NCBI RefSeq assembly: GCF_024199925.1
Contig: NZ_JANADR010000001.1
Location: 1-64,000, forward strand
DNA from: Bradyrhizobium sp. CCGUVB1N3
GTDB lineage: Bacteria > Pseudomonadota > Alphaproteobacteria > Rhizobiales > Xanthobacteraceae
Length of the DNA stretch: 64,000 bases
Direction: 5' to 3'
In this document: positions 10,953 to 46,540 of the stretch, piece by piece
Position numbering within the stretch: the stretch's first letter is position 1
Layout: each line of letters opens with the position of its first letter
Notes under the pieces: model-generated
The model's database searches: none
What the model saw: the letters and a program-made list of their open reading frames with translations, nothing else
Told to the model about the DNA's origin: nothing
Position numbers and translations under genes: made by a program

Positions 10953-10970
10953 TAGTACACAAGCGTACTA
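10953..10970. promoter_or_regulatory. 18-bp palindromic operator (site a)
   Basis: TAGTAC-ACAAGC-GTACTA: perfect 6-bp half-sites. It lies 94 bp before the MaoC gene (minus) and 110 bp before the chosen start of the binding-protein gene (plus). Best-conserved member of the island-wide motif, together with site i. Confidence 0.85.
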
Positions 10971-11079
10971 AATATAGACCGTCGGGCGCAAGGGCCGGAC
11001 GGCAGGGAGCTGCGCCGTGATTTCGAGCATCGGATGGTCAAACCATTGGATTCATGCCTGGGGATCGTCCAGGCGGACT

Positions 11080-12312
11080 ATGCTCCGACAGGCCGGCTTC
11101 GGCATCGCAAGAGTGTTCGCAGGGTTGCTGGTCAGTTTGCTTGCTGGTCAGGCGATCGCCGGCGAAAAAAAATATGGCCCCGGCGTCAGCGACACTGAAA
11201 TCAGGATCGGCAACACCTCGCCCTATAGCGGCCCGGCGTCTGCCTTCAGCATGGTTGCCAAGACCGAGGAGGCATATTTCCGCAAGGTCAATGCGGAGGG
11301 AGGCATCAACGGTCGACGCATCGTGTTCCTCTCCTACGATGACGCTTACTCGCCGCCCAAGGCCGTCGAGCAGACAAGACGGCTGGTTGAAAGCGAGGAA
11401 GTCCTGGTCGTCTTCAACGCTCTTGGCACCGCGTCGAATTCAGCCGTTCAGAAATACCTGAACGCCAAGAAGGTGCCTCAGCTGTTCGTGTCGAGTGGCG
11501 CTGCCAAATGGAACGATCCGAAGAACTTTCCATGGACGATGGGATTCACCCCGAGCTATGAGACCGAAGGCTACATCTACGCGAAATATCTTCTGCGCGA
11601 GCGCCCCGTTTCGAAGGTTGCGATATTCTTTCAGAATGATGACTTCGGCAAGGATTACCTGAAAGGAATCAAAGCTGGGCTCGGCGATAGGGCCACGTCC
11701 ATGATCGTTGCGGAGGAGGCGTTCGATGTGTCCGAGCCGACCATCGATTCCCATCTTGTGAAGCTCAAGGCGACCGGCGCTGACGTGCTGTTCGACGTCG
11801 CGACGCCAAAATTCGCGGCTCAGGCGATCAAAAAGGTGAGCGAGCTTGGCTGGAAGCCGCTGCATATTCTCAGCTACGTGTCGGCTTCGACCGGTAGTGT
11901 GATCAAACCGGCCGGGTTCGAGAATGCGCAAGGGTTGATCTCGGCAGCATATTTCAAGGACCCCAACGATCCGACCTGGAAAGACGATTTGGGGCTGAAG
12001 GAGCTCAACGGATTTCTTGACGGTTATTTTCCCGGCGCTGATCGGAGCGATACGCTGATCGTGAATGGCTACAACACAGCGCAGGCGCTCGTTTACCTCC
12101 TGAAGCAGTGTGGTGATGATCTGACGCGCGAGAATATCATGCGTCATGCTTCCAATCTCAAGCAGGTCGAGCTCGGAATGCTGCTGCCGGGTATCCGGCT
12201 GAACACCTCGCCTGGGGATTTCGCGCCGATCAAGCAATGGCAGTTGATGCGGTTCGAGGGGACGAATTGGCATCTGTTTGGCGACGTCATGAGTGGCGAC
12301 TCGAATAACTGA
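11080..12312 (+). CDS. Liv-type ABC transporter substrate-binding protein, 410 aa
   Basis: Periplasmic Peripla_BP_6 (LivK-like) receptor. The start at 11080 gives a clean signal peptide (basic MLRQAGFGIAR, hydrophobic core VFAGLLVSLLAG, cut near AIAG). Family features include YGPGVSDTEIRIGNTSPYSGP, GGINGRRI, DDAYSPPKAVEQTRRLV, and a FFQNDDFGKDYL lobe. It shares its layout with the protein at 32204-33397 and the stub at 54638. It is expressed with the SDR gene 15 bp downstream. No permease genes are adjacent, so it may feed the LivHMGF set at 40834-44111. The ligand is unknown; a carboxylate of the island's pathway is likely. Confidence 0.9.
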   Translation: MLRQAGFGIARVFAGLLVSLLAGQAIAGEKKYGPGVSDTEIRIGNTSPYSGPASAFSMVAKTEEAYFRKVNAEGGINGRRIVFLSYDDAYSPPKAVEQTRRLVESEEVLVVFNALGTASNSAVQKYLNAKKVPQLFVSSGAAKWNDPKNFPWTMGFTPSYETEGYIYAKYLLRERPVSKVAIFFQNDDFGKDYLKGIKAGLGDRATSMIVAEEAFDVSEPTIDSHLVKLKATGADVLFDVATPKFAAQAIKKVSELGWKPLHILSYVSASTGSVIKPAGFENAQGLISAAYFKDPNDPTWKDDLGLKELNGFLDGYFPGADRSDTLIVNGYNTAQALVYLLKQCGDDLTRENIMRHASNLKQVELGMLLPGIRLNTSPGDFAPIKQWQLMRFEGTNWHLFGDVMSGDSNN

Positions 12313-12327
12313 GGGAAAGGAAGGTTC

Positions 12328-13230
12328 ATGGGACAACTTTGTGTCGGGCGGGTTGCTATCGTGACCGGAGGTGGTCGTGGGCTGGGACGCGAGTATGCCT
12401 TGATGCTGGCTGAGCAGGGGGCCAAGGTCGTGGTCAACGATCTCGGCGCCACCGCAGCGGGCGAGGGAGCCGATCTTTCACCCGCCCGCGAGGTCGTCGA
12501 CGAGATCAAGCGCGCCGGCGGTGAGGCGATCGTCAACGGCAACGACGTCAGCGATTGGGCGGGCGCCAAGGCGCTGATCGATGACGCCGTCAATACGTTC
12601 GGGCGGCTCGATGTTCTCATCAACAATGCCGGCATCCTGCGGGACCGCATGATGGTCAATATGACCGAGGCGGAATGGGACGCTGTCATCAAGGTGCATC
12701 TGAAGGGCACCTTCGCGCCCTCTCATCATGCCGCGCAATATTGGCGCCAAGAGACCAAGAAGCGCGGTACACCGGTTGCCGCGCGCCTGATCAACACATC
12801 TTCGGCTTCAGGGCTGTTCGGCAATGTCGGTCAGAGCAACTATGGAGCCGCCAAGGCAGGCATCGCCGCCTTCACCGTTATCAGTGCCATGGAGCTTCGG
12901 CAGTACGGAATCACGGTGAACGCGATCGCGCCTAGGGCGCAAACCCGGATGACTGAAGGTCTGAGGGAGCGTAGTGAGGAGGATATCAAGCGCCGGAATC
13001 CACGCTGGGTTGCTCCAATTGTGGTCTGGCTTGCAAGCGAGCAGTCAGCCGACGTGACGGGCCGCGTGTTCGAAGCTGGCGATGGAATTCTCAAGGTCGC
13101 CGAAGGATGGCACGCCGGACCGGGAATCGACCCGGTCGAAGATCCCAACGCACTTGGCCCTCAGATCGCCGAGCTGATGCAGAAAGCGCGACCCAATGCT
13201 GACATCTGGGGGCGCGACATCGTCGCGTGA
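12328..13230 (+). CDS. Short-chain dehydrogenase, (3R)-hydroxyacyl-CoA dehydrogenase type, 300 aa
   Basis: Classical SDR resembling the dehydrogenase domain of multifunctional enzyme 2. It has the NAD-binding TGGGRGLGREYA, NNAG, catalytic Ser in NTSSASGLFGN and Tyr/Lys in NYGAAKAG. The 300-aa length with the NDLGATAAGEG loop is typical of that group. It likely oxidises the 3-hydroxyacyl-CoA formed by a MaoC hydratase such as 10011-10859. RBS GGAAAGGAAGG precedes the ATG. It follows the binding-protein gene by 15 bp. Confidence 0.88.
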   Translation: MGQLCVGRVAIVTGGGRGLGREYALMLAEQGAKVVVNDLGATAAGEGADLSPAREVVDEIKRAGGEAIVNGNDVSDWAGAKALIDDAVNTFGRLDVLINNAGILRDRMMVNMTEAEWDAVIKVHLKGTFAPSHHAAQYWRQETKKRGTPVAARLINTSSASGLFGNVGQSNYGAAKAGIAAFTVISAMELRQYGITVNAIAPRAQTRMTEGLRERSEEDIKRRNPRWVAPIVVWLASEQSADVTGRVFEAGDGILKVAEGWHAGPGIDPVEDPNALGPQIAELMQKARPNADIWGRDIVA

Positions 13231-13274
13231 GCCTGCGGAACTCCTCCCGGAGCACCTCAGGCGGGTGGTTGGTT

Positions 13275-13796
13275 TCAGGCCGCCGCCCGCCGCTTCTTCC
13301 GGGTTTTGGGCCGCGGCACGTCCTCCTCGTCCTCTTCGCCCTCGGCCTCAGTACCGTCGGACATGGCGAGGAGATTATGCTTCATGGCAAGGAGCGCTTC
13401 TGCTGCGCCTTCGAGCTCCTTTCGATCGATCCCGTTGACGATTCTTTCGTTGAACTTGTCGGTCTCTTTCCGCAGTTTCTCGAGGAAACCGCGTGCCTGC
13501 TTAGTGACATAGACGCGCTTGATGCGCCGGTCGACCGGATCGACCTGGCGTATCACGAACCCGGATGTTTCGAGGCGGTCAATCAGCGCGCCGACCGCAA
13601 CCTTGCCGACGTCGAGCTCGTTGGCGAGCTGCACTTGAGGAAGCCCGTCCTTGCGCGAAATGAACGCAAGGACCCACCACTGCGACCGGGTGATCCCAAG
13701 CGGTGCCAGCGCCCGATCGAACATCATCCTCCTGAGCCGTGACACGTCGTGAATGAGATATCCAAGCCGGAGATCCCAATCGGGCTGATCAGCCAT
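13275..13796 (-). CDS. MarR-family transcriptional repressor (BadR-like by context), 173 aa
   Basis: The start at 13796 (MADQPDWDLR) is chosen because of AGGGAAA just upstream; the longer frame would begin inside the operator. Winged helix: LGITRSQWWVLAFISRKDG, recognition region VQLANELDVGKVAVGALIDRLE, and wing DPVDRRIKRVYVT. The C-terminus is unusual, with an acidic run (EGEEDEED) then a basic tail (RPKTRKKRRAAA). In R. palustris the MarR protein BadR represses the badHI-aliAB-badK genes and responds to an alicyclic CoA ester. Here the gene has operator site b upstream of itself, so it is the likely reader of the repeated 18-bp palindrome and probably autoregulated. Confidence 0.88.
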   Translation of the reverse strand: MADQPDWDLRLGYLIHDVSRLRRMMFDRALAPLGITRSQWWVLAFISRKDGLPQVQLANELDVGKVAVGALIDRLETSGFVIRQVDPVDRRIKRVYVTKQARGFLEKLRKETDKFNERIVNGIDRKELEGAAEALLAMKHNLLAMSDGTEAEGEEDEEDVPRPKTRKKRRAAA

Positions 13797-13843: not shown

Positions 13844-13861
13844 CCATACACCAGCGTATTT
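13844..13861. promoter_or_regulatory. 18-bp palindromic operator (site b, marR promoter)
   Basis: CCATAC-ACCAGC-GTATTT, a degenerate member of the motif (core ATAC...GTAT). It lies 48 bp upstream of the marR start. Confidence 0.65.
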
Positions 13862-13928: not shown

Positions 13929-13946
13929 AAGTACGCTAGTGTATTA
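13929..13946. promoter_or_regulatory. 18-bp palindromic operator (site c)
   Basis: AAGTAC-GCTAGT-GTATTA. It lies 79 bp before the SDR start at 14025, with site b 68 bp away on the marR side of the same divergent region. Confidence 0.78.
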
Positions 13947-14024
13947 ATTGTGAGTTGGCTGGATCTGGTCCGCTGCAGAAGCCGCCGACCGCCGACCCAT
14001 TCGGCCATAGGAAGGAAGCCGCTC

Positions 14025-14906
14025 ATGTTCGACACGGCCGTGCTCAAGGGAAAGCGCATTCTGGTTACCGGTGGCGGAACCGGACTCGGCAAGGAAATGT
14101 CGGTGGGGTTCGCGGCGCACGGTGCTCATGTCTACATCTGCGGACGCAGGAAAGAGGTCCTGGACGCGGCAGTCCAGGAAATTCGTACGCGGTCTGGAGG
14201 ACAGGTATCTGCGCTGCTCGCCAATGTCCGCGATCCCGACAGCATCGAAGCGCTGATGAACACCATTTGGGCGGACGGACCGCTGACTGGGCTCGTCAAC
14301 AACGCCGGTGCCAACTTCCTGGCGCCGACCGAAAGCCTGTCGCCACGCGGATATGAGGCGGTCCGGTCCACGGTGATGGATGGCTCGTTCTACATGTCGC
14401 TTGCCTGCGGCAAGCGCTGGATCGCGGCGGGTGTGCCCGGCGTGATCATCAGCAATCTCGTCACCTGGGTGTGGACCGGATCGGCCTACGTGGTGCCGGC
14501 GGCGATGGCGAAGGCAGCCGTACACGCCATGACGATGTCGCTCGCTGTCGAGTGGGGACCCAGGAACATTCGCGTTAACGCGATCGCACCCGGGCCGTTT
14601 CCGACTGAGGGAGCCTGGGACAAGCTCAATCCGTTGGCTGAGACGGGTGTCGGCGCGACCCAGGCAGAAGAGGTCCCGCTCCGCCGCTTCGGCAAGATGG
14701 ATGAGCTGCGCAATCTCCTGATCTTCCTGATGTCGGATGGTTGCAGCTACATCACTGGCGATACCATCAGCATCGATGGCGGACACCATCTTGCCGCGCC
14801 CAGCACTTTTGCGGGGCTTTCGAAGCTGTCCGCGGCGGATTGGCAGCGTGCGCGCGAAGCCATTCAAGGCTCGGTGCAGAAAGAGAAGCAGGCACGTTCG
14901 ATCTGA
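14025..14906 (+). CDS. SDR, 2,4-dienoyl-CoA-reductase-like, 293 aa
   Basis: The ATG at 14025 has AGGAAGGA upstream. NADP-binding TGGGTGLGKEMS and NNAG are clear. The usual SDR YxxxK is replaced by VPAAMAKAAVHAMTMSLAVEWG, as in DECR1-type 2,4-dienoyl-CoA reductases (which have SASAKAGVEAM). GPFPTEGAWDKLNP also matches that family. It would reduce 2,4-dienoyl-CoA or related unsaturated thioesters using NADPH. It forms an operon with the crotonase gene 31 bp downstream and is preceded by operator site c. Confidence 0.85.
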   Translation: MFDTAVLKGKRILVTGGGTGLGKEMSVGFAAHGAHVYICGRRKEVLDAAVQEIRTRSGGQVSALLANVRDPDSIEALMNTIWADGPLTGLVNNAGANFLAPTESLSPRGYEAVRSTVMDGSFYMSLACGKRWIAAGVPGVIISNLVTWVWTGSAYVVPAAMAKAAVHAMTMSLAVEWGPRNIRVNAIAPGPFPTEGAWDKLNPLAETGVGATQAEEVPLRRFGKMDELRNLLIFLMSDGCSYITGDTISIDGGHHLAAPSTFAGLSKLSAADWQRAREAIQGSVQKEKQARSI

Positions 14907-14937
14907 TCCTTGAGCAAACTCTAACGAAGAGGCTTTG

Positions 14938-15738
14938 ATGGGACTGGCAGTACCGACAAAGAGCTTCGAGTGCACCATTGAGAATGGGCTTGCACACATC
15001 GATCTGGCCCAGCCCACGCGAGGTAATCCGATCGACGGGACATTCTGTCGCGAGTTCGGCCTTGCAATTTCGGAGTTGAGTGAGCGCGCGGACGTACGGG
15101 CGGTACTGCTTTCGGCGCGCGGACGCCTGTTCAGCGTCGGTGGCGATCTGATGTCGCTGGTGAGCCAGGGAGAGGCGCTGCCGGCGACGATCAAGGCTTG
15201 GACAGCGGACCTGCACGCGGCGATCGCAAGAATGGTCCGGATGCGGGCACCCGTCGTTGCGTCCGTTCACGGCAATGTCGCGGGTGGAAGCGTATCGCTC
15301 ATGGCAGCAGCAGATCTGGTGGTGATGGCAGAAACGGCGCGAATCTCCGCTGCGTTTTCCAAGATCGGGTTCAGCCCGGACAGCGGTTCGACGACGACCG
15401 TGACGCGCCGCATCGGCGTTGCCCGCGCGAGACGGTTCTTCCTGCTTGGCGAGGCCCTCGATGCCGGAACGGCGCTGTCGCTGGGCCTTGTCGATTTCGT
15501 CGTGCCTGATGACGCGGTGCAGTCCGAGGCCCTCCGGATCGCAAGGGAACTCGCCGCAGGGCCGACCGAAGCGTTTGGCGCGATCAAGCGACTGTTCTCC
15601 CAAACCAGCGATCGATCGTTCGAAAGCCAGCTCGAGGAGGAGGCCCAGACGCTCGCCGCGATTTCGCGGACCGCCGATGCCCGCGAAGGCGTCAGGGCCT
15701 TTACCGAGAAGCGCAAGCCAGTGTTCGAAGGAAAATGA
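14938..15738 (+). CDS. Crotonase-family isomerase/hydratase, 266 aa
   Basis: The ATG at 14938 follows GAAGAGG. Oxyanion-hole segments are present (ARGRLFSVGGDLM; GNVAGGSVSLMAAADLV). Neither catalytic Glu of true enoyl-CoA hydratases is present: the first site is GGSVSLM and the second is IGFSPDSGST, where the Asp of PDSG matches the catalytic Asp of PaaG-type isomerases. Double-bond isomerase activity is therefore more likely than hydration. Coupled to the dienoyl-CoA-reductase-like gene, which fits handling of misplaced double bonds. Confidence 0.85.
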   Translation: MGLAVPTKSFECTIENGLAHIDLAQPTRGNPIDGTFCREFGLAISELSERADVRAVLLSARGRLFSVGGDLMSLVSQGEALPATIKAWTADLHAAIARMVRMRAPVVASVHGNVAGGSVSLMAAADLVVMAETARISAAFSKIGFSPDSGSTTTVTRRIGVARARRFFLLGEALDAGTALSLGLVDFVVPDDAVQSEALRIARELAAGPTEAFGAIKRLFSQTSDRSFESQLEEEAQTLAAISRTADAREGVRAFTEKRKPVFEGK

Positions 15739-15741
15739 GCG

Positions 15742-15841
15742 CCGGCTTCGCGGTCGGAAGCGACAATCTGGACCATTGGCACGAGATCGTACTCCGCCAT
15801 AACGTACACACATTAACGATATAATCCGGCCGCGAAGCCGG
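15742..15841. repeat. 12-bp inverted repeat flanking the ligase promoter
   Basis: CCGGCTTCGCGG (15742-15753) and CCGCGAAGCCGG (15830-15841) are perfect inverted copies 76 bp apart. Between them lies weak operator d, and the second copy is 33 bp before the ligase start. The pair could form a large hairpin in read-through RNA from the upstream operon, or be two copies of a binding half-site. Confidence 0.6.
15802..15819. promoter_or_regulatory. Weak operator-like site (site d)
   Basis: ACGTAC-ACACAT-TAACGA. The left half-site matches the island motif (GTACAC) but the right half is poor. It lies 55 bp before the ligase start at 15875. Confidence 0.35.
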
Positions 15842-15874
15842 AAGGACACAGCGCTGCAAGAGGGAGAAATCACC

Positions 15875-17491
15875 GTGGCCTCGGCCCTTCAAGCTTCTCA
15901 CGCCGGCTTTCGTGAATCAGGCTATTGGCTCGACAAGACCGTCGATCAGTTATTGAGCGAAGCCGCCGCAAAAGCGCCGGACAAGATCGCCATCGTCGCA
16001 GACCGGGCAGATCGCGAGCAGGCTCGTCGCTTCACATATAGTGAATTGGTGAGGCTCGCGGATCGTGCGGCGAGTTCGCTCCTGCGGCTTGGTGTCGGCG
16101 CTGGCGACGTCGTGACCGTGCAGTTGCCCAACTGGTGGGAGTTCGTCGTCACCGCGTTTGCATGCAGCAAGATCGGCGCCGTGATGAATCCCGTGATGCC
16201 GATCCTGAGGGAGCGTGAGCTCGGCTACATCCTCAATTTCTGTCAGACCAAGGTCTTCATCGTTCCGAAGAGTTATCGCGGGTTCGACTACGCCGCGATG
16301 GCGCAAGGCATGCGCGCGGACCTGCCGCATCTCAAGCACGTGATCGTGGCGGATGGCGAGGGCGAAACGAGCTTTGACCGGATGCTGCTGTCGACCGAGG
16401 CCGACAAGCTTCCTTCGGGTTTGCGCCCGGACGACATGGCCGTCCTGATGTTCACATCAGGCACGACCGGCGAGCCCAAGGGGGTCATGCACACGTCGAA
16501 CTCACTGGTCGCCTGCTGCAAGGCGCTGACGGGGCGGTTCGGCCTCGACTCTACCGATGTGCTGCTGGTGGCTTCGCCGGTCGGTCATATGACAGGCTAT
16601 GCCGCGATCGTGCTGCTGTCGGTCCATCTCGGAGGAACGATGATCCTCCAGGACGTCTGGGAAGCCAGGCGTGGCGTCAATCTGATGGCCGGCGAAGGCG
16701 TGACCTATACCGCAGCCTCGACGCCATTCCTCGGCGATATCTGCGACGCCGTGAAGGCCGGGGCGCCACATCCGAAGAGTTTGCGCGCCTTCCTGTGCGG
16801 CGGCGCGCCGATTCCCTCGATCCTGATCGACCGCGCGGCCGCAGAACTCGGCCTCAAAGTTTGCTCACTCTGGGGCATGACCGAAGTCCTGTCTGGCACG
16901 CTCACCGAGCCGGCGCGAGCGGCCGAGAAATCGGCGCATACAGACGGCCGGGCGCAGGACGGGATGGAAGTCAGGATCGTCGACACCGATGGACGATTGG
17001 CCCCGACGGGAGAGTCGGGACGGCTGTTGGTTCGCGGCGCCCAGATGTTCAAGGGCTACTACAAGCGGCCGGAGCTGCCGACGTTTGACGGCGATGGTTG
17101 GTTCGACTCCGGCGATCTCGCCTACATGGACAAGGATGGATACATCCGCATTTCGGGCCGGGTGAAGGACATACTGATCCGAGGTGGCGAGAACGTGCCG
17201 GTCGTCGAGATCGAGGACCTGCTTTACAAACACCCGGCCGTCTCCGCCGTAGCGGTGGTGGGTTTTCCCGATGCGCGGCTCGGCGAGCGCGGCTGTGCCT
17301 TCATCGTGCCTCGCACTGGAAGCACGATCGATCTCGCTGCCGTACAGTCCTATCTAGGCGAAGCCAAGATGGCGAAACAGTTCTGGCCGGAACGTGTCGA
17401 ACTCGTGGCTGAACTCCCGCGCACCGCCAGTGGAAAGATCCAGAAGTTCAAGCTGCGCGAGCTTGCAACCGCGTTGCAGACCGAAGCGTAG
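15875..17491 (+). CDS. Acyl-CoA ligase, cyclohexanecarboxylate-CoA-ligase-like, 538 aa
   Basis: GTG start at 15875 with AGGGAGA upstream. ANL-superfamily ligase: P-loop-like FTSGTTGEPKG (A3), LWGMTE (A5), WFDSGDLAYMDKDGYI (A7), GRVKDILIRGGENV (A8) and catalytic Lys in PRTASGKIQKF (A10). It adenylates a carboxylic acid and forms the CoA thioester. Overall resemblance is to AliA of R. palustris, and a close relative is encoded at 46585-48243. Together they likely activate the entry substrate(s) of the island. It converges with the crotonase gene at 17493 (1 bp between stops). Confidence 0.88.
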   Translation: MASALQASHAGFRESGYWLDKTVDQLLSEAAAKAPDKIAIVADRADREQARRFTYSELVRLADRAASSLLRLGVGAGDVVTVQLPNWWEFVVTAFACSKIGAVMNPVMPILRERELGYILNFCQTKVFIVPKSYRGFDYAAMAQGMRADLPHLKHVIVADGEGETSFDRMLLSTEADKLPSGLRPDDMAVLMFTSGTTGEPKGVMHTSNSLVACCKALTGRFGLDSTDVLLVASPVGHMTGYAAIVLLSVHLGGTMILQDVWEARRGVNLMAGEGVTYTAASTPFLGDICDAVKAGAPHPKSLRAFLCGGAPIPSILIDRAAAELGLKVCSLWGMTEVLSGTLTEPARAAEKSAHTDGRAQDGMEVRIVDTDGRLAPTGESGRLLVRGAQMFKGYYKRPELPTFDGDGWFDSGDLAYMDKDGYIRISGRVKDILIRGGENVPVVEIEDLLYKHPAVSAVAVVGFPDARLGERGCAFIVPRTGSTIDLAAVQSYLGEAKMAKQFWPERVELVAELPRTASGKIQKFKLRELATALQTEA

Positions 17492-17492
17492 G

Positions 17493-18296
17493 TCACTGGT
17501 CAGAATAGGTGGGATCCCGCCGCTCGCGAAATGCGGCGACGGCTTCCGCGTGATCGTGCGTCTCCAGCAAGATAACCTGCTGCCGGTCCTCTATCATGAG
17601 AGCGGAATCGAGGCTGGGTGCGTCGATCAGCGTGTTGAGCGCCTGCTTGGTCATGCGCAAGCCCATGGGGGAGACCCGCAGCATCTCGTCGGCGAACGCT
17701 AACCCCTTTGCGAGCAGCTCGTCGAGCGGTGCGATGTCGCTGACGAGACCTATCGCTTTCGCGCGCTCAGCCTTGAGAAACCGTCCCGTCAGCAGCAGTT
17801 CGGAGGTTACGGAGAGGCCAACCAAGCGCGGCAGCAGGTAGCCCGAGCCCATGTCACAGCCGCCGACGCCGATGCGGATATAGGCCGCGTTCATCCGCGC
17901 GTCGGGTGCTGCAAACCGGACATCGCAGGCGAGCAGGAAGGAGAAGCCCGCACCGCAAGCCGCGCCGTGGACGAGCCCGATGATCGGCTGCGGGCACGAC
18001 CGCATCAACCGGATCACGCCCGAGTAATTCTGCTGCATTCTGAGCTGGCGCTGCGGTCGGCCCTTGCCGGGGGCGGCAAACGCGTCCGATCCAAGTTCTG
18101 CACCGGCCGAGAATTGAGGTCCATCGCCGCGCAGGATTACGACGCGCGTCGTCGGCCGATCGTGAAGCCCGGCGAAGTATTCGGTCAATTCGGCGATCAT
18201 GTCAGGCGACACGGCGTTGAGCTGGGCTGGTCGGTTCAACGTCAGGATCTCGATCGCGCCGCGGGTTTCGACGGCGATAGTGTTCGGGTGGGTCAC
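17493..18296 (-). CDS. Enoyl-CoA hydratase/isomerase family protein, 267 aa
   Basis: Crotonase fold: FSAGAELGSD and GLVHGAACGAGFSFLLACDVRF oxyanion regions. The hydratase Glu pair is not conserved (GAGFSFL; IGVGGCDMGSGYLLPRL), with Asp in CDMG instead, so isomerase or hydrolase-like chemistry is likely rather than hydration. Read from operator site e, divergent from the frameshifted SDR. Substrate unknown, presumably a cyclic or branched acyl-CoA of the pathway. Confidence 0.85.
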   Translation of the reverse strand: MTHPNTIAVETRGAIEILTLNRPAQLNAVSPDMIAELTEYFAGLHDRPTTRVVILRGDGPQFSAGAELGSDAFAAPGKGRPQRQLRMQQNYSGVIRLMRSCPQPIIGLVHGAACGAGFSFLLACDVRFAAPDARMNAAYIRIGVGGCDMGSGYLLPRLVGLSVTSELLLTGRFLKAERAKAIGLVSDIAPLDELLAKGLAFADEMLRVSPMGLRMTKQALNTLIDAPSLDSALMIEDRQQVILLETHDHAEAVAAFRERRDPTYSDQ

Positions 18297-18335
18297 AGGT
18301 GCGCTCCCATCGGTTCGTTTGTCCTTGATCGTAGA

Positions 18336-18353
18336 TAGTAATAAAGTGTACGA
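18336..18353. promoter_or_regulatory. 18-bp palindromic operator (site e)
   Basis: TAGTAA-TAAAGT-GTACGA. 40 bp before the crotonase gene (minus) and 73 bp before the SDR pseudogene (plus). Confidence 0.75.
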
Positions 18354-18425
18354 TATCTCCGTGCAATGCTCGTTGCGGCCCTGCGGACAAGTCGGGCGGC
18401 AGCGTCAGCAACAGGGAGCCAGGAG

Positions 18426-19291
18426 ATGCCATACCAGTCCGTGTTCAGGCCGGATCTGTTCAAGGGCCAGACGATCATCGTGACCGGCGGTGGCAGCGGG
18501 ATCGGGCGTTGCACCGCTCACGAACTCGCCGCCCTTGGCGCGAATGTGGCCATTCTCGGCAGGACCATGGAGAAGCTGACCGAAGTTCAGCATGAGATCG
18601 AAGAGGACGGCGGGCAGGCGATGAGCCATGCCTGTGATATCCGCGATGATGCGATGGTGATCGGCGCGATCGATGCAGTGTTGGCGCGATTTGGTCGTAT
18701 TGATGGATTGGTCAACAATGCCGGCGGGCAATTTCGCGCTCCATTAAAGGCGATCTCGACCAAAGGGTTCGACGCCGTCGTGCGCAACAACTTGACGGGC
18801 GGCTTCATTTTCATGCGGGAAGTCTACAATCGCTGGATGGAGGCCAATGGAGGGGCGATCGTCAACATCATCGCCGACATCTGGCATGGCTGGCCCGAGT
18901 TCGGCCATTCCGCGGCGGCATGCTGACCCTGACCGAGACCGCCGCCTGCGAATGGTCGGCGTCGGCCGTCCGCGTAAACGCGGTTGCTCCGGGCGGCATC
19001 GTGTCGAGCGGTTTCGATACCTACTCGCCGGAAATGCAGAAGAAGCTCTATGACTTCACCGAGCGGGTTCCGTTGCAGCGCTTTGGAACGGAAGCGGAGA
19101 TCTCGGCCGCAATCACCTACCTGCTTTCGCCGGCGGCTGCTTACATCACTGGCTCATGTATCCGTGTCGACGGTGGAACGCCGAATGCACGCACAACCTG
19201 GAAGCTGGAGCCGCACAGCCGCAGCATGCCATTCGAAGGTTTTCACCGGGTCAAGCTGCCCGAAGTGATGAAGCGCAAGGCCCGCGCCTAG
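18426..19291 (+). pseudogene. Frameshifted SDR, trans-2-enoyl-CoA-reductase-like
   Basis: Starts at ATG 18426 after AGGAG (MPYQSVFRPDLF). TGGGSGIGR and NNAGG are intact. The frame stops at 18926 just after FGHSAAA, while the next frame resumes with MLTLTETAACEWSASAVRVNAVAPGG at 18920 and runs to 19291. Relatives (PECR type) read HSGAARAG at this point, so a deletion of about 10 bp, removing roughly ARAG including the active-site region, explains the shift. The product is probably inactive unless the frameshift is a sequencing error. Confidence 0.85.
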
Positions 19292-39600: not shown

Positions 39601-40476
39601 CTAAGCTCGTGAAGGATCGAGGAGCCGGCATTCGCCTCGATCGAGCAACATCACTTGTCTTTCGAGCGCCCACGCCTGAAACCGAATTGCCTCGTCTGTT
39701 TCGAACAGGTCGAACCGGATCGTATCGCCGGGATAGGCTGGCGCGATAAATCTCGCTGCCAGCGTGTCGATCAACTCTGGGCGGCCCGGCGCGTGCCTCT
39801 TTAGGATCGCGCGGCAGGCGAGGCCCAGCGTATTCAAGCCGTGCGAGATTGGTCGATCAAAGCCTGCGTCGCGGGCGACCGAGGGGTCGGCGTGGATAGG
39901 CATGTAGTCGCGGCTGACGAGGCGATAAAGTAGCGCCGCCTGATGCGGAGTCCGGTAAGTGATACTGGTGCTGGATCTTGCCTCGTCAGCTATTCGTGTG
40001 ATCGCGACGGGCGGCGAACCAAAATTGCCGCAGCCACCATCGCCACGCAGGAAATCCGTCGCGCAGAGGGTGGCCAGTCGCTCGCCGCTGGTAGCGTCGA
40101 ACAGCTCGGTATCGAGGTAGAGCAGGGCGCCGCGCATCGGCCCCTTGTCTTCGACAGCACTGACGCGGTGTTCGGCACGAATGGATCCGCTGACCGGCAG
40201 TGGGCGGTGCAGCGTGAGACGCTGTTCGCCATGTAAGGCCTTGGTCCAGGCAATGCCGGTCTCGGGCTCGGCGATCCAGAGAGGCGGCCAGCCGAGCGTT
40301 ACGCTCATGCTTGGGACGGCACGTTGATCGCGGCCCTCGTAGACGTAAGGCAATTCGTCCTCGTCCAAGGGGTCGTCGCCCATGCCGAGGCCGAGCGCGT
40401 AAAGCGCGCAATCGCGCCAATCGTAGGATTGATGGTTCGGCGCAAAACGCCGCGCGACAACATGATCAAGGTTCAT
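39601..40476 (-). CDS. MaoC-family hydratase (hydratase-2 type), 291 aa
   Basis: Paralogue of 10011-10859: YALGLGMGDDPLDEDELPYVYEG, DFLRGDGGCGNFG, and hydratase-2 signature LVSRDYMPIHADPSVAR followed by AGFDRPISHGLNTLG. SRDYMPIH has Met-Pro where the paralogue has Asn-Pro before Ile-His; the catalytic Asp and His remain. It would hydrate a 2-enoyl-CoA to the 3R-hydroxy form. It is read from operator site j, divergent from the liv operon. Confidence 0.88.
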   Translation of the reverse strand: MNLDHVVARRFAPNHQSYDWRDCALYALGLGMGDDPLDEDELPYVYEGRDQRAVPSMSVTLGWPPLWIAEPETGIAWTKALHGEQRLTLHRPLPVSGSIRAEHRVSAVEDKGPMRGALLYLDTELFDATSGERLATLCATDFLRGDGGCGNFGSPPVAITRIADEARSSTSITYRTPHQAALLYRLVSRDYMPIHADPSVARDAGFDRPISHGLNTLGLACRAILKRHAPGRPELIDTLAARFIAPAYPGDTIRFDLFETDEAIRFQAWALERQVMLLDRGECRLLDPSRA

Positions 40477-40833
40477 CGGGTCCCCTTAGCGTGCACGACG
40501 CGATACTTTAAATCGTTGAGCTGCGTACGAGTGTCGGCAATCGGATCTCTGTGCAAACCGCCCATTGCGCGAGATGCCGCAGCGCACGGCTTCCATTTGG
40601 ATTTGCGTCGAACACCAGTATATGATAAGCCAGTGTACTAATCGAGCATTGAACTCGAGATTGTCCGACAGGACAAGGGGAATGCTGAAGGCCGGCACGC
40701 AGCGCGATCGGATATCCGCTGCGGATGCCGCGTGGTGGCAGGAGGGCCGTTTGCGAGGTCGAGCGCCTAGGCTGGCGGCGCATCGGAAAAGCGTGTGCAG
40801 CGCATCGATGCATCGTGACAAGGTCATACCGTC
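40477..40833. other. Long divergent promoter region (no gene seen)
   Basis: 357 bp between the MaoC gene and livH. It contains operator site j (40623-40640) preceded by the AT-rich stretch TATATGATAA. The remaining ORFs are short, overlap on both strands and show no family resemblance. The 194-bp leader before livH may hold regulatory structure, but no riboswitch pattern was recognised. Confidence 0.6.
40623..40640. promoter_or_regulatory. 18-bp palindromic operator (site j)
   Basis: TGATAA-GCCAGT-GTACTA: right half-site perfect, left half degenerate. 147 bp before the MaoC gene and 194 bp before livH. Confidence 0.65.
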
Positions 40834-41691
40834 GTGATCGCGCTCTTGATCGCGAATTCGCTGGCGCTCGCCTCCTTGCTGATCATGCTGTCGAGCGGGC
40901 TTGCCTTGATCTACGGTCTGCGCGACGTCATCAATTTCGGGCATGGCGCGATCTACATGCTCGGTGCCTATCTTGGCTATACGATAGCCACCGTCGGGGG
41001 ATTCTGGCTGGCACTGCTGCTGGTCCCGATCCTGCTGGCGTTGCTTGGGATCGCATTCGAGTATCTGGCCCTGCGGCCGTTGCAGAGGCGCTCGCACATC
41101 GAAGTCGCGCTGGTCACGCTGGGTCTTGGCATCATCGTAGGTCAAATCATCATCTACATCTACGGTGGCGAGGCGCGCAGCGTCGACGCCCCGAAGATCC
41201 TTTCGGGATCGGTCACCATTCTCCACCTTTCTTACCCCGTATACCGCCTCTTCCTCATTGTGATGGGGCTCGGCTCCTGTGCGCTGCTCGCGCTATGGCT
41301 GCGCTCGACCTCGTCGGGACTGTATGTGCGGGCGGTTAGCCAAGACCCCTCGGTCGCGCGCATGATGGGAATCAATGCCGACCGCCTCAGTCTGCTGGTC
41401 ACCAGCCTCAGCACGGCCTTTGCCGGCATCGCCGGTGTGCTGGCCGGGCCCTATCTGTCGGTCGATCCCGGAATGGACGTCGTCATGATCGTGAACTGCC
41501 TGATCATCGTTGTGATCGGTGGTACCGGCAGTATTGGCGGCGCAATCGTTGCGGCGCTGCTGTTCGGCTTTGTTCAGGTCGCGGGATCGGTTTTTCTGCC
41601 CAATCTCGCGGCGCTCGTGCCCTACATCTTGCTGATGGTCGTTCTGCTGATCGCACCGGGCGGCATTGGGCGCGGGAGGGTGCTGGGTTGA
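40834..41691 (+). CDS. livH: Branched-chain-type ABC permease LivH, 285 aa
   Basis: GTG start at 40834. Polytopic membrane protein with the LivH signature LSSGLALIYGLRDVINFGHGAIYMLGAYL and C-terminal VIGGTGSIGGAIVAALLFGFVQ. Forms the inner-membrane channel with LivM. First of five genes in the order H-M-G-F-K. Given the island, the importer probably carries an aromatic or alicyclic carboxylate rather than an amino acid. Confidence 0.93.
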   Translation: MIALLIANSLALASLLIMLSSGLALIYGLRDVINFGHGAIYMLGAYLGYTIATVGGFWLALLLVPILLALLGIAFEYLALRPLQRRSHIEVALVTLGLGIIVGQIIIYIYGGEARSVDAPKILSGSVTILHLSYPVYRLFLIVMGLGSCALLALWLRSTSSGLYVRAVSQDPSVARMMGINADRLSLLVTSLSTAFAGIAGVLAGPYLSVDPGMDVVMIVNCLIIVVIGGTGSIGGAIVAALLFGFVQVAGSVFLPNLAALVPYILLMVVLLIAPGGIGRGRVLG

Positions 41692-42719
41692 GCAACGATG
41701 CGATGATGGGAGGCCTGCACGAACCTGCGGCTGCTACATTTGGTGGCTCGATTTCCCGGAGGCCGCTGGCAATCATCGTCGGACTGATCGGGCTAGCCAC
41801 GGGCGCAGTCGTTCCGACCTATCTCGCCAGCGATTTTGTACTCCGACTTGGTGGTGAGGGCTTGCTGTTGGGTTTACTAGCCCTAAGTGTCGCCTTCCTG
41901 ATGAATCAAGCTGGGCTCGTGGCGCTTGGGGCTGCCAGTATCTATGGCGGCGCCGGATATCTTTTCGCGATCGGCATGAGCGATTGGGGCCTCACACCGA
42001 CGGTGGCATTGGGTGTCGCATTCCTGCTTCTTCTTGTCTATTCGGCCATGCTCGGCGCATTGATCGTCCGAACGAACCCGCTTGCTTTCATGATGCTGAC
42101 ACTCGCCGCCGGCGAGATGGTGAGCCACGCAGTGCTGCTTGAGGGATTGCGCGACTATACCGGCGGCGCCGACGGACTCGTGGTGCGGATCAATGGATCG
42201 GTTCTCGGCGTCGACGCAGCTCGCTTTACGGATCCGGCGCAGTTCTGGTCACTCGCCTTCGTCGTGACCGCGCTGGTCGGACTAGCATTTTGGGGGATCG
42301 GACGGTCCCGTCTCGGTGCCATGCTCCGCGCTATCAGGGAGAACGAGGAGCGGATGCGCTTTTCCGGATTCAATACCTTCCTGCCGCGGCTGATCGGATA
42401 TGTCCTCGTCAACGTCGTGGCCGCGATTGCGGGCTTTCTGCATGTACTCAATGCCGGCTTCGTATCGCCGGAGAGCTTGGGCCTGTTTGTCAGCACCAAT
42501 ACGTTGGTCGCCGCGCTGATCGGCGGCATCTCCGGTTCGCTCGGGCCGATCCTCGGCGGGCTGATCTTCTCCTTTGCACAGGATGAGTTCGGCGCGCGCG
42601 GGCTAACGCAATTGCTGACCGGCATCGCCATCGTCGTGTTCATCGTCGTGTTCCCGCGCGGTGTCGTCGGTGGGCTATCCGGTCTATCGAAGCGGCTCGG
42701 CTGGCGGCGGGAGACCTGA
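41688..42719 (+). CDS. livM: Branched-chain-type ABC permease LivM, 343 aa
   Basis: TTG start at 41688 overlapping the livH stop by 4 bp. LivM features: AFLMNQAGLVALGAASIYGGAGYL, IRENEERMRFSGFNTFLPRLIGYV (cytoplasmic coupling loop) and AALIGGISGSLGPILGGLIF. About eight or more hydrophobic segments. A first Met in frame appears only a few residues in (SNDAMMGG), so the exact start could shift. Confidence 0.92.
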   Translation: MSNDAMMGGLHEPAAATFGGSISRRPLAIIVGLIGLATGAVVPTYLASDFVLRLGGEGLLLGLLALSVAFLMNQAGLVALGAASIYGGAGYLFAIGMSDWGLTPTVALGVAFLLLLVYSAMLGALIVRTNPLAFMMLTLAAGEMVSHAVLLEGLRDYTGGADGLVVRINGSVLGVDAARFTDPAQFWSLAFVVTALVGLAFWGIGRSRLGAMLRAIRENEERMRFSGFNTFLPRLIGYVLVNVVAAIAGFLHVLNAGFVSPESLGLFVSTNTLVAALIGGISGSLGPILGGLIFSFAQDEFGARGLTQLLTGIAIVVFIVVFPRGVVGGLSGLSKRLGWRRET

Positions 42720-42720
42720 C

Positions 42721-43419
42721 ATGCTCGCGATCGAGAAACTATCGGTGAGTTATGGCTCGGTGCGCGCGCTGAGTGACGTCGATCTCGAGGTTCACGGTGA
42801 TGGCGTCCTGCACGGGGTCATCGGCCCCAATGGGGCGGGCAAGTCCACCTTGCTTGATGCGATCTGCGGCCGCCGGCGTCCGAGCTCTGGACGCGTCCGC
42901 TATTGCGGCGAGGATATCACGCGCCGATCGATCAGCTGGCGTCGCCGGCAGGGCATGGCGCGATCGTTTCAGCGCACCAGCATCTTCCAGGATCTGACTG
43001 TGCATGACCAACTCAAGCTGGTCGCGCAGCATCTTGGCGACGATCGACTCGACGATGTCATCGAGGTCATGGATCTCGGCGGCTATCTCGACCAGAAAGC
43101 GGGGCGCATCGCCTACGGCGTTCAGCGCCGGGTCGACGTCGCGCTAGCACTGATCGGTCGTCCCCGTCTGCTGTTGATGGACGAGCCGGGGGCCGGCCTG
43201 TCAGCCACGGAGACGCTGCGTCTGTTCGAGCATGTCCGCGATCTCGTCCGCGAGCGGCGGATTGCAGCCGTCGTGGTCGAGCACGATGTCGATGCGGTGT
43301 TCGCCTGCTGCGGTATGGTCACCGTGCTGGATCTCGGGCGACATCTCGCCACAGGGGCACCCGAAGCAATTCGCGCCGACCATCGCGTGATCGCGGCGTA
43401 TCTGGGGACGGCGGCATGA
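42721..43419 (+). CDS. livG: ABC ATPase LivG, 232 aa
   Basis: ATG at 42721, 1 bp after the livM stop. Walker A GPNGAGKST, Q-loop region RSFQRTSIF, a signature that is degenerate (IAYGVQRRVDVALAL instead of LSGGQ), Walker B RLLLMDEPGAGLS and H-loop VVEHD. LivG proteins normally have YGxQR in the signature, so it is the family pattern, not damage. 4-bp overlap with livF. Confidence 0.93.
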   Translation: MLAIEKLSVSYGSVRALSDVDLEVHGDGVLHGVIGPNGAGKSTLLDAICGRRRPSSGRVRYCGEDITRRSISWRRRQGMARSFQRTSIFQDLTVHDQLKLVAQHLGDDRLDDVIEVMDLGGYLDQKAGRIAYGVQRRVDVALALIGRPRLLLMDEPGAGLSATETLRLFEHVRDLVRERRIAAVVVEHDVDAVFACCGMVTVLDLGRHLATGAPEAIRADHRVIAAYLGTAA

Positions 43420-44111
43420 GCGCGCTGCGAATCCAGTCGCTGTTTGCGGGCTATGGCGCATCCACCGTATTGCGCGGCATAGACCTCACGGTCGAGGAGG
43501 GAGAATCGGTCGCGCTGGTCGGCCGCAACGGCGCCGGCAAGTCGACTCTGCTCCTCTCTGTGTTTCGCGAGACCACTATCTCGTCCGGCGAGATCTGGGT
43601 TCGCGGCCGCCGGATCGACAGCCTGCCGGGTTACACGGCTGCGAAACTTGGTGTGTCGATTGCACCGCAGGGACGGCGCATCCTGCCGAACCTGACGGTC
43701 AAGGAGAACCTGCTGCTGGGCCGGTCGACCGGCCGGGCAGGGCATTGGATCTTGAAGACCATCTACGAGCTGTTTCCGGTGCTCGAGGAGCGCGCCGATC
43801 GGCCCGGCACCATGCTGAGCGGCGGCCAGCAGCAGATGCTGGCGATCGGCCGCGCCCTGATGGCCAATCCTAGCCTCATCCTGCTCGATGAGCCCTCGGA
43901 AGGTCTTTCACCAGTGCTGATCGACGGGTTGGTCGACACGCTCAACGCAATCCGCAGCGGCGGGACCGGCGTGCTTGTAGTCGAGCAGCATCTCAGCCTC
44001 GTCAGGCGCGCAACCGATCGGTTTGTCATTCTGGCGAAAGGGGAAGTCGTCGGGACAGGCGCGATTGACGCCATCGGGGCACCGGAGAACCAGGCTTTGA
44101 TGGCGCTCTAG
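43416..44111 (+). CDS. livF: ABC ATPase LivF, 231 aa
   Basis: ATGA overlap with livG. Walker A GRNGAGKST, signature MLSGGQQQMLAIGRALM, Walker B LILLDEPSEGLSP, H-loop VVEQHL. Completes the two-ATPase set of a Liv-type importer. Followed 25 bp later by the binding-protein gene. Confidence 0.93.
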   Translation: MSALRIQSLFAGYGASTVLRGIDLTVEEGESVALVGRNGAGKSTLLLSVFRETTISSGEIWVRGRRIDSLPGYTAAKLGVSIAPQGRRILPNLTVKENLLLGRSTGRAGHWILKTIYELFPVLEERADRPGTMLSGGQQQMLAIGRALMANPSLILLDEPSEGLSPVLIDGLVDTLNAIRSGGTGVLVVEQHLSLVRRATDRFVILAKGEVVGTGAIDAIGAPENQALMAL

Positions 44112-44136
44112 CAAAAACAAGCAGAGGAGGGAGGAA

Positions 44137-45354
44137 ATGAAGATATCATCCACAGGGCCGGCTTTCGGGGCGCTGCGCACGGCGACCATCGGCGCTGCGC
44201 TGGCGTTCACCGTCGCGACGACCGCCATTGCCGAGGATACGGTCAAGATCGGCGTACTCCTGATCGACAGTGGACCGCTCGCAGGGCTGAAGGACACCCA
44301 GGTCAAGGCTGTGAACCTCGCGATCGAGCAGATCAACGCCGCCGGCGGCGCGGCAGGCAAGAAGCTGGAAGCGACCTTCATCTCCTATCCCGGCACGCCC
44401 GATACCGCGGTGGATGGCGCCACCCGCGCAGTCCAGAAGGACGGTGCGATGTTCATCACCGGCATGGACACATCGGCGGTGACGCCTGCACTGCAGGCCA
44501 AGCTGCCGGCGCTGAAGGCCATCATGCTGGAAGTCATGGCCAATGCCGACGGCCTCACCGGAAAGAACTGCACGCCGAACTATTTCCGGGTCAATGCAAA
44601 CGACTCCATGATCATGGGAGCCTTCAGGGAGTTCTTGAAGGACCAGGGTATCAAGAAGTGGGACATCATCGCGGTCGACTATGCAGCCGGGCGTGATTCT
44701 GCGGACAAGTTCAAGGCGCTGGTGACCTCACAGGGCGGAACCATTGGCAAGACCCTGTTCTCGCCCAACGGCACGCCGGATTTCGGTACCAAGATTTCGG
44801 AGCTCGGCGCCGATCCGGCAGACGGCCTGTTTGTGACGATCTTCGGCAGCGATGCGATCAATCTCGCCAAGCAGCAGCAACAGTTCGGCCTGTTCAAGAA
44901 GTACAAGATGGTACTGGGCAATTCCTTCGTGATCCCGCAGACGTTACCAGCGCAGGGCGAGACCGTGCTGGGCGTCTACCAGAACATCGGCTTCGTGGCC
45001 GGCTTCCCCGGCGCGAAAGCCGAAGCCTTCGTGAAGGCCTACAAGGACAAGTACAACGGCGAGCTCCCGCCCTACACCAGCGCCGACCAGTATGCTGCAA
45101 TCGAATTGATCGCAGCGGGGCTTCAGAAAGCGAACTCGACCGACATCGACGCGGTTCGCGCGGCGCTGTCCGGCCTCAAGACAGAGACGGTGCTGGGGGA
45201 TGTGGAGGTCCGCGCGGGTGATCATCAGACGGCGCGGCGGATGGCGATCAGTCAGATCGCGATGGGTCCGGAGGGCAAGCCGGCCTACCAGATCAAGAAG
45301 ATCGAGCCGGGAGCTGACATTATTCCGCCAGTGGATCCCGCCTGCAAGATGTGA
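44137..45354 (+). CDS. Liv-type ABC substrate-binding protein, 405 aa
   Basis: GAGGAGGGAGG precedes the ATG. Signal peptide with core ATIGAALAFTVATTAIA, cut near AIAED. Peripla_BP_6 features: VKIGVLLIDSGPLAGLKDTQ, AINQ-like AIEQINAAGGAAGKKLE and TSADQYAAIELIAAGLQKA. It belongs to a different branch from the two binding proteins at 11080 and 32204 (no YGPGVTD motif). It is the dedicated receptor of this operon. A strong terminator follows. Confidence 0.92.
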   Translation: MKISSTGPAFGALRTATIGAALAFTVATTAIAEDTVKIGVLLIDSGPLAGLKDTQVKAVNLAIEQINAAGGAAGKKLEATFISYPGTPDTAVDGATRAVQKDGAMFITGMDTSAVTPALQAKLPALKAIMLEVMANADGLTGKNCTPNYFRVNANDSMIMGAFREFLKDQGIKKWDIIAVDYAAGRDSADKFKALVTSQGGTIGKTLFSPNGTPDFGTKISELGADPADGLFVTIFGSDAINLAKQQQQFGLFKKYKMVLGNSFVIPQTLPAQGETVLGVYQNIGFVAGFPGAKAEAFVKAYKDKYNGELPPYTSADQYAAIELIAAGLQKANSTDIDAVRAALSGLKTETVLGDVEVRAGDHQTARRMAISQIAMGPEGKPAYQIKKIEPGADIIPPVDPACKM

Positions 45355-45364
45355 CGCTGATCTC

Positions 45365-45395
45365 GTTTCGCTCGTGGCTAAGCCACGAGCGAAAC
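45365..45395. terminator. Perfect 14-bp stem-loop, bidirectional
   Basis: GTTTCGCTCGTGGC (45365-45378) pairs with GCCACGAGCGAAAC (45382-45395), loop TAA. It lies 10 bp after the binding-protein stop and encodes the last codons of the convergent oxidoreductase (stop at 45378-45380), so it can serve both operons. Confidence 0.82.
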
Positions 45396-46397
45396 CTTGC
45401 CGAACTGCGCTCCGGAGGCGAGTCGTGCAAGGGCCGAAGGGGTGTCCGCCATCTTGAAGGAGGAGTCGATCACCGGCTTGACCAAGCCGCGATTGAACAC
45501 ATCGAGCAGCTGTCGGAATTCCCCGACGCTGCCGCCGGTCGAGCCATATATCTCCAGCTGACGGATGAACACCCGCTGCAGATCGGCCGGCGGGTTGGAA
45601 CCCGTGGTCGCACCGCAGGTGACGAGGCGGCCGCCGCGACGTAGGGAACGCAGCGATTCACCCCAGCTCGCTTCTCCGACGCTGTCGATCACCATGTCGA
45701 CACCGCCACCGCTCATCTGCTGGATCGCGGCCGATACCCTGTCTTTCCGATAGTTGACGCCACCATCCGCGCCCAGTTTGATGGCCCTGGCGATTTTCTC
45801 GTCGCTGGAGGAGGTGACTAAGACGCGGGCACCGACCAGCTTTGCAAGCTGAAGGCAGGCGACCGCGACACCCCCGCCGATGCCGACGATCATGACGCTT
45901 TCGCCGGGTTGCAGCGCACGTTTGCCGAACAGCATGCGCCAGGCGGTAAGATGGCCGGTCATCAAAGCGCCCGCAGCCACCAAATCCGTATCGTCGGGAA
46001 GAGGGAAAAAGCAAGCGCTGGGCATTGCGATGTAGTCTGCGAAGCCGCCGTGGCGATGCTCACCCATGATCTTGACGTTCTCGCAAAGCGACTGATCGCC
46101 CGCCAGGCAGTAACGGCATTTGCCGCAAAAAGCTTCGGAGAAGAGCACCGCCTTCGCACCCACCTTCAGCCCGCTTCCCGGGGCGGCCTCGACGATCTCG
46201 CCAGCCGCTTCGACGCCCATCACTTGTGGCAATTGATGGGTGATGCCGTTGCCATTGTCGCGCATGTAGAGATCGACGCGATTGACCGATGCCGCCGCAA
46301 CCTTCAGCACGGACTCGCCTGCAGCCGGCAGGGGATCGGGGAAATCGCGCCAGACCACGCCGTCCGCGCCGCGTCGTTCCAGGACTGCCGCCTTCAT
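45378..46397 (-). CDS. Zinc-type alcohol dehydrogenase-like oxidoreductase, 339 aa
   Basis: MDR superfamily with GroES-like N-terminus: NRVDLYMRDNG, GVEAAGEIVE, structural zinc loop FCGKCRYCLAGDQSLC (four Cys), GIGGGVAVACLQLAKLVGARV Rossmann motif and DMVIDSVGEASW. It probably oxidises an alcohol or reduces an unsaturated carbonyl with NAD(P)H. Read from operator site k, divergent from the second ligase operon. The substrate is not evident. Confidence 0.88.
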   Translation of the reverse strand: MKAAVLERRGADGVVWRDFPDPLPAAGESVLKVAAASVNRVDLYMRDNGNGITHQLPQVMGVEAAGEIVEAAPGSGLKVGAKAVLFSEAFCGKCRYCLAGDQSLCENVKIMGEHRHGGFADYIAMPSACFFPLPDDTDLVAAGALMTGHLTAWRMLFGKRALQPGESVMIVGIGGGVAVACLQLAKLVGARVLVTSSSDEKIARAIKLGADGGVNYRKDRVSAAIQQMSGGGVDMVIDSVGEASWGESLRSLRRGGRLVTCGATTGSNPPADLQRVFIRQLEIYGSTGGSVGEFRQLLDVFNRGLVKPVIDSSFKMADTPSALARLASGAQFGKVSLVA

Positions 46398-46522
46398 GCT
46401 TGCCTCCCTCTTTGCTTCCGCCGCAGGTCACGAAACTGATGCACTAGATCACGAAACAGGAATCAGAAGATCCAGCACGAAGCTGGAACTGGCCAAATTG
46501 CTGTTGCAGTCCGTTTCAAATA

Positions 46523-46540
46523 TAATACACTAGCGAACTA
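46523..46540. promoter_or_regulatory. 18-bp palindromic operator (site k)
   Basis: TAATAC-ACTAGC-GAACTA. 126 bp before the oxidoreductase gene (minus) and 45 bp before the ligase start at 46585 (plus). Confidence 0.74.

Follow-up and report, generated by a model that had tools for sequence, protein, structure and literature searches.

Contig 1 of Bradyrhizobium sp. CCGUVB1N3 holds, within its first 64 kb (the whole stretch of 64,000 nucleotides analysed here, called the window below), an island of acyl-CoA and transport genes that extends from about 10.0 to 54.6 kb, and the question raised by this locus is whether so many divergently arranged genes answer to a single regulator. MarR-family regulators usually govern few units. 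An earlier note on this DNA had proposed that a palindrome, TAGTAC-N6-GTACTA, places the divergent promoters of the island under one MarR repressor encoded within it. The evidence set out here favours that single local regulon as a strong inference from sequence: the palindrome is real, it stands in all eight divergent promoter regions that had been named, and the MarR protein is the only regulator found that accompanies the sites. It is highly probable that this protein (13275-13796) is an autoregulated local repressor acting at TAGTACRCYWGYGTACTA, released by a CoA thioester and controlling the breakdown of 4-substituted cyclohexane(ene)carboxylates by a bad/mrc-type route.

On this proposal a MarR dimer would bind at least 12 operators of the form TAGTACRCYWGYGTACTA, spread over eight divergent promoter regions, and would keep about 38 genes, in about 16 transcription units, switched off, presumably including both units of each divergent region. 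A pathway intermediate, probably the acyl-CoA thioester of an alicyclic substrate (perhaps derived from monoterpenoid acids such as perillate), would release it, and uptake, activation, ring opening and chain degradation would then start together. One switch ahead of nearly every gene group suggests that a ring-degrading pathway is turned on as one unit, and one local MarR seems to govern an island of some 38 genes.

The operator in the window and in the genome

The refined operator is an 18 bp palindrome, TAGTACRCYWGYGTACTA, found in the divergent promoters of the island. The palindrome had thus been recognised correctly, but not its free centre, for the six central bases are constrained and read RCYWGY in the matrix. 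Eleven sites that fit the earlier description, which listed no coordinates site by site, were found (every operator in Table 1 except those at 33450 and 46437); the total of eleven was too low, since 12 sites are counted in the window, together with a weak thirteenth at 46437. Sites are scored throughout as matches out of 18 to the refined consensus, and permuted half-site controls out of 16.

A search of the window with TAGTAC-N6-GTACTA at up to 3 mismatches gave 12 matches against 2.47 +/- 1.59 expected, a number reached by none of 100 shuffles. These matches comprise eight of the eleven sites, the new site 33450 and three non-members (9355, 15777 and 44899), and the weak sites 13844, 28015 and 40608 lie more than 3 mismatches from this pattern. 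With the refined consensus, 7 window positions score at least 15/18, all intergenic; 9 score at least 14/18, none of them outside the island and 8 of them centred on intergenic DNA; and 19 score at least 13/18, of which 15 are in the island and 12 intergenic. By the gene list of the analysis, intergenic DNA amounts to 2438 of the 44631 bases of the island. Permuted half-sites matched the window count in 0 of 300 cases at 13/16 and likewise in 0 of 300 at 14/16. When a matrix was built from 47 distinct sites of relatives with the window left out (one best site per region, without the ECH1/ACS1 and LysR/APH2 regions and without sites below 13/18), the 12 sites took ranks 1 to 12 of all window positions. 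A second matrix, drawn from more distant loci (46 distinct sites), placed all 12 among its 13 best positions, the remaining one being 27119 within ACD3; its sites were preselected by our own consensus (at least 15/18), so it is not fully independent.

The earlier note would have given up the regulon had the motif been equally frequent in the rest of the genome; at up to 3 mismatches the 10.44-Mb genome contains 9 distinct places, 7 of which are in the island. The matches outside the island, at 3304136 and 4695284, were treated as chance, homologs of island genes being absent within 1.5 kb (E 1e-10). Site 33450 lies 55 bp within the longest SBP2 open reading frame (ORF; 32204-33505), and its counterpart in relatives is outside the aligned SBP2 protein in 4 of 8 cases and within it in 4, so that the SBP2 start may or may not have been set too far upstream. 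No operator is claimed ahead of ACS1 (about 15.8 kb), because the window scores only 12/18 there; at least 14/18 is reached in 11 of 24 comparable ECH1/ACS1 regions.

Conservation within the genus

Regions of 60 kb around the MarR relative were taken from 12 genomes of the genus, and 20-kb loci from named genomes. Promoters were compared among 35 sources: 22 loci (L084-L105) plus 13 regions 60-64 kb in length. One strain is counted twice, because L085 duplicates the record of G119. A promoter was kept only if both flanking genes had at least 60% identity, the right orientation and a position within 900 bp, and n thus varies by promoter; SDR6 identities were left unused since the query started out of frame. 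The island is present in 11 of the 12 regions and absent in G218 (MarR 63%). Every comparable orthologous region of the eight named promoters holds a site (best site, window included), and the region between MarR and SDR2 holds two in each of 31 cases, including the copy ahead of the MarR gene itself (13844). In shuffled regions, which preserve single-base composition only, the best score averaged 10.8 to 12.0, and the weakest sites (12-13/18) are therefore distinguished by their fixed place and not by their score. Gene order is altered in G234, G089 and G034, and the sites still stand ahead of the same genes.

A 14/18 site in G219 is flanked by genes for a Rieske oxygenase, a reductase and a divergently oriented amidohydrolase (L042:11411-15078). 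To judge from its sequence, this Rieske oxygenase unit is a further member of the regulon that the window lacks. The operator can in this way point to missing pathway genes and can help to find the inducer, and the regulator-operator pair is testable and could serve to delimit the complete set of genes of a widespread, little-studied soil pathway.

The MarR regulator and its rivals

The MarR winged-helix domain is clearly recognised (PF12802, 53.9 bits against a cut-off of 27 in the ORF with the longer start at 13847; PF01047, 44.4 bits against 24.6), and the best solved relatives of the alignment are SlyA chains. The start was set at 13796 because the longer one falls inside operator 13844. 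Orthologs of at least 78% identity occur in 34 of 265 genomes of the genus, and the motif, at up to 2 mismatches, in 32 of these 34 as against 15 of the 231 genomes without an ortholog (Fisher p 2e-27, related genomes being non-independent). The two ortholog-bearing exceptions hold weaker sites, at 13-15/18 in the island of G140 and at 13-15/18 near the MarR gene of G170 (L032). Among 60 scanned ORFs of the window the regulators are this MarR, a LysR at 34908 and a LysR at 59587, and no other; the LysR at 34908 occurs in 2 of 12 site-bearing islands (the window and G126). Some islands carry a second MarR paralog (47-49% identity) about 11 kb away (L063, in the G034 island, and L082, in G425).

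A number of observations weigh against the proposal. The reversed pattern, used as a control, is commoner in the genome than the motif (40 versus 16 matches), and often so per genome in the same-genus set, so that the argument rests on place, not number. At 12/16 the permutation control was not passed (46 of 300 for the window and 14 of 300 for the distant loci considered below), and the weak sites are therefore not individually significant in this window; what supports them is that relatives keep them in the same place. A site of 15/18 is lacking in 22 of the 57 distant loci. A crude scan found no promoter box pair at 10953 or 33450. The enzyme families, except BKACE and a broad thiolase subfamily model, fall under curated cut-offs, which makes the substrate uncertain. 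Lastly, there are the 15 genomes with a motif match and without an ortholog, four of which were inspected: the match in G136 is on a 4.2-kb contig of the same cluster, a broken contig from a 70%-complete genome, and those in G032, G033 and G145, where nearby similarity is weak (27-37% to single SDR, ECH, ACD or ACS queries), look like chance.

Genomes of this last kind, and the presence of other regulators near the islands of some relatives, such as a TetR in G219, could be accommodated if the island LysR or a protein encoded elsewhere bound the palindrome and the MarR were a bystander. That is very unlikely, as 10 of the 12 site-bearing islands lack the LysR, whose own promoter has no site, the scanned ORFs yielded no further regulator besides the LysR at 59587, and the motif keeps company with the MarR gene both across genomes and in the doubly occupied promoter region ahead of it.

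The mode of action attributed to MarR is repression, which together with dimer binding and a CoA-ester inducer would be expected from the family and from BadR. Operator 13844 lies between TTTAAA and TATTAG boxes and operator 13929 overlaps TTTACA-N17-TATTAA; operators thus placed on the -35/-10 boxes at MarR and SDR2 fit steric repression. Some MarR-family proteins activate, and at 10953 and 33450, where the simple scan found no -35/-10 pair, either mode may apply. That MarR acts as an activator, or as both activator and repressor, is most improbable in view of the overlapped boxes ahead of MarR and SDR2, and of the fact that BadR, the nearest known regulator in role, is a repressor released by CHC-CoA (PMC9795900).

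The LysR/APH2 promoter is the exception, as had been noticed: it bears only an inverted repeat of its own (35858-35878), and no site of at least 12/18 was found in the 2 of 2 regions that could be compared. The LysR-APH2-MFS-DUF7064 module is confined to the window and G126 among the 12 islands, and in G219, G008 and G194 APH1 is followed directly by MaoC3. The module is probably a later insertion with its own control, to go by this distribution, and is an example of how an island may hold a unit outside its common switch.

Spread outside the genus

Relatives of the MarR protein with 50-77% identity occur in Mesorhizobium, Reyranella, Rhodobacter relatives, Variovorax, Paraburkholderia, Rubrivivax, Aromatoleum and others, and their genes mostly lie amid counterparts of the core genes found here (the survey retained 80 of the 237 confirmed relatives). 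A site of at least 15/18 is present in 35 of 57 distant loci, one of which (L153) is Bradyrhizobium barranii with a diverged MarR. The totals for these loci exceed 300 of 300 permuted half-sites at both 13/16 and 14/16; when only the 13 alphaproteobacterial loci are taken, the 13/16 count is reached by 2 of 300. L080, from another genus of the family (MarR 47%), has sites of 17/18 and 16/18 ahead of a MaoC1 homolog; L078, L079, L082 and L083 have no site of at least 13/18. Operator, regulator and core genes thus also occur together in other alpha- and betaproteobacteria.

No description of this regulator was found in the literature searched. We are inclined, on balance, to regard the undescribed repressor and its operator as an ancient master switch, common to alpha- and betaproteobacterial islands for alicyclic (probably terpenoid-acid) catabolism, in which one local MarR would preside over more than 12 transcription units. 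The operator would have stayed nearly constant, even as regulator identity dropped to about 50% and gene order was reshuffled. As a kind the system is ordinary, being a local repressor regulon; as a member of that kind it is large for a MarR and widely conserved. One repressor and one palindrome also serve many units of a large CoA-thioester pathway in the KstR/KstR2-type sterol regulons of actinobacteria, which are unlike the present system in regulator family (TetR), phylum and operator.

Pathway and comparison with known systems

The top NCBIfam match of ECH3 is badI (420.3 bits, below the curated cut-off of 467.6), that of SDR4 is BadH (308 bits, cut-off 431) and that of both ligases is cyclohexanecarboxylate-CoA ligase (697 and 663 bits, cut-off 792); BKACE lies above its cut-off (545 over 430) as a 3,5-dioxohexanoate cleavage enzyme. 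Among 117 members of the genus searched, badI exceeds its cut-off in 4 (540-544 bits), a match of 413-422 bits occurs in 17, all 17 MarR-bearing, and G028 and G178, without a MarR ortholog, give 445-452 bits. Homologs of ECH4 (the best 120 of 2633, from Bradyrhizobium, other metagenome-assembled genomes and metagenomes) gave no pathway name.

The monoterpene (mrc) island of Castellaniella defragrans 65Phen comprises, in Table 1 of PMC4109377, MrcD, MrcE, a long MrcF, MrcC and MrcB, followed by a hydratase, a citrate lyase and an acyl-CoA dehydrogenase. At the level of annotation only, the window likewise brings together BadH-like and BadI-like enzymes, a long hydratase, a 2,4-dienoyl reductase, an acyl-CoA dehydrogenase and a hydratase-lyase-dehydrogenase trio, so that MrcB-F-like enzymes and the trio, with a ligase and MarR, have their counterparts here, which makes 4-substituted cyclohexane(ene)carboxylates, for example perillate, the likely type of substrate. 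The two differ in that Castellaniella is a betaproteobacterium and that its limonene dehydrogenase, LDI and RND genes were not recognised in the window; nothing on regulation of the mrc island was found in the passages of PMC4109377 consulted. That the island serves some other alicyclic or branched acid, for example a naphthenic acid, under the same regulator must be counted a real possibility, if not the preferred one, given that the window yielded no Castellaniella-type enzyme for the initial oxidation of monoterpenes, that BKACE goes unnamed in the Castellaniella table, and that the Rieske oxygenase unit stands under a similar site in a relative's island. Agreement with the mrc island by annotation argues the other way, extending to the order as well as the set of the badH-like, badI-like, long hydratase, 2,4-dienoyl reductase and acyl-CoA dehydrogenase genes and also to the (R)-hydratase, citrate-lyase-like and second acyl-CoA dehydrogenase genes. 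With a 4-substituted ring as substrate, ring opening and one round of beta-oxidation would lead to a 3-substituted glutaryl-CoA, which ACD1 and MaoC2 may convert to a tertiary 3-hydroxyacyl-CoA; the HpcH-type lyase would cleave this to acetyl-CoA and a beta-keto acid, and BKACE would split the latter. Such a route would explain why the ring genes are accompanied by those for the lyase and BKACE.

In Rhodopseudomonas palustris and Aromatoleum sp. CIB the bad-ali genes are repressed by BadR, a MarR-family protein whose operator is CAATnnATTG (PMC9795900). The resemblance to BadR that had been pointed out extends to role (a MarR-family protein, divergent promoters and control of badH/badI-type alicyclic ring cleavage) and, as had also been said, the island covers far more units; it does not extend to sequence or to operator, TAGTACRCYWGYGTACTA here against CAATnnATTG, and the likeness is for this reason one of role only. 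CAATnnATTG has no occurrence in the 64-kb window. Two bad clusters of the genus carry a single copy each of the published BadR box, CAATATATTG (L175:11445-11454 and L176:5916-5925); in L175 it separates the BadH gene from a divergent MarR, and in the L176 cluster a MarR was not observed. An identification of the window MarR as BadR was rejected, for the window is without the BadR operator and the protein shares 31% identity across 96 residues with the L175 MarR (the comparison did not extend to published BadR sequences). By analogy with BadR, release of the window MarR by a CoA ester is likely.

Gene content of the island

Table 1. Positions in the window of the regulator, the operators and the genes of the island; conservation refers to comparable regions of relatives.
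Feature	Position	Strand	Score	Basis or conservation
MarR-family regulator, 173 aa, proposed local repressor	13275..13796	-		Pfam MarR_2
Operator, MaoC1/SBP1 divergent promoter	10953..10970		18/18	best site 17-18/18 in 12/12 regions
Operator ahead of the MarR gene itself	13844..13861		13/18	second site of region, at least 12/18 in 31/31
Operator ahead of SDR2-ECH1	13929..13946		16/18	at least 13/18 in 31/31
Operator, ECH2/SDR3 divergent promoter (weak site of the earlier note)	18336..18353		14/18	at least 13/18 in 31/31
Operator, MDR / MaoC2-HpcH-ACD1 divergent promoter	20331..20348		17/18	at least 16/18 in 25/25
Operator ahead of ACD3-SDR4-ECH3-BKACE-ACD2 unit	27950..27967		15/18	best site at least 14/18 in 11/11
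Weaker operator ahead of ECH4-CoAT1	28015..28032		13/18	second site at least 12/18 in 11/11
Additional operator near SBP2 start	33450..33467		14/18	rank 9 of window positions by relatives' matrix
Operator ahead of APH1	33604..33621		16/18	best site at least 14/18 in 9/9
Two overlapping palindromes, MaoC3/LivH divergent promoter	40608..40640 (40608-40625, weak; 40623-40640)		13/18 and 15/18	40623 counterpart 15/18 in 4/4; 40608 counterpart at least 12/18 in 3/4
Weak possible operator, ADH side	46437..46454			rank 14 by both matrices; 12-13/18 there in relatives
Operator ahead of ACS2-SDR5-SDR6-ACD4-APH3-NTR-CoAT2-PGM unit	46523..46540		16/18	best site at least 15/18 in 6/6
MaoC1, SBP1, SDR1	10011..13230	-, +, +		Pfam
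SDR2, ECH1, ACS1; ECH2; SDR3 (split); MDR	13950..20314	+; -; +; -		Pfam, NCBIfam
MaoC2-HpcH-ACD1 unit	20399..22951	+		Pfam; top NCBIfam matches RipB and RipC, under cut-off
ACD2, BKACE, ECH3 (badI-like), SDR4 (badH-like), ACD3	22968..27931	-		Pfam, NCBIfam
ECH4 (432 aa hydratase), CoAT1 (CoA-transferase III)	28051..30565	+		Pfam
THL and SBP2; APH1	30987..34841	-; +		Pfam
LysR, APH2, MFS, DUF7064 module without operator	34908..39537			Pfam
MaoC3; LivHMGF-SBP3; ADH	39601..46397	-; +; -		Pfam
ACS2, SDR5, SDR6, ACD4, APH3, nitroreductase, CoAT2, phosphatase	46543..54641	+		Pfam

SDR3 (18366-19291) is split into two ORFs in the window and forms a single open stretch of 311-316 aa in 5 of 5 relatives checked; the split is either a frameshift or a sequence error. 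At the left end of the island a TctC-type binding protein (9110-10009) aligns to its G219 relative only from residue 56 on, with 79% identity, and relaxase-like and other foreign-looking ORFs lie upstream of its gene (1474-8694). An insertion seems to have truncated this end and removed the operator present there in relatives. Towards the right end (49843-52130) the genes for an acyl-CoA dehydrogenase and an APH-type kinase are neighbours, preceded by those for a ligase and dehydrogenases, a set that looks like a hydroxyacyl-CoA phosphorylation and elimination module; ACS2-SDR5-SDR6-ACD4-APH3 presumably resembles the levulinate-type hydroxyacyl-CoA kinase route.

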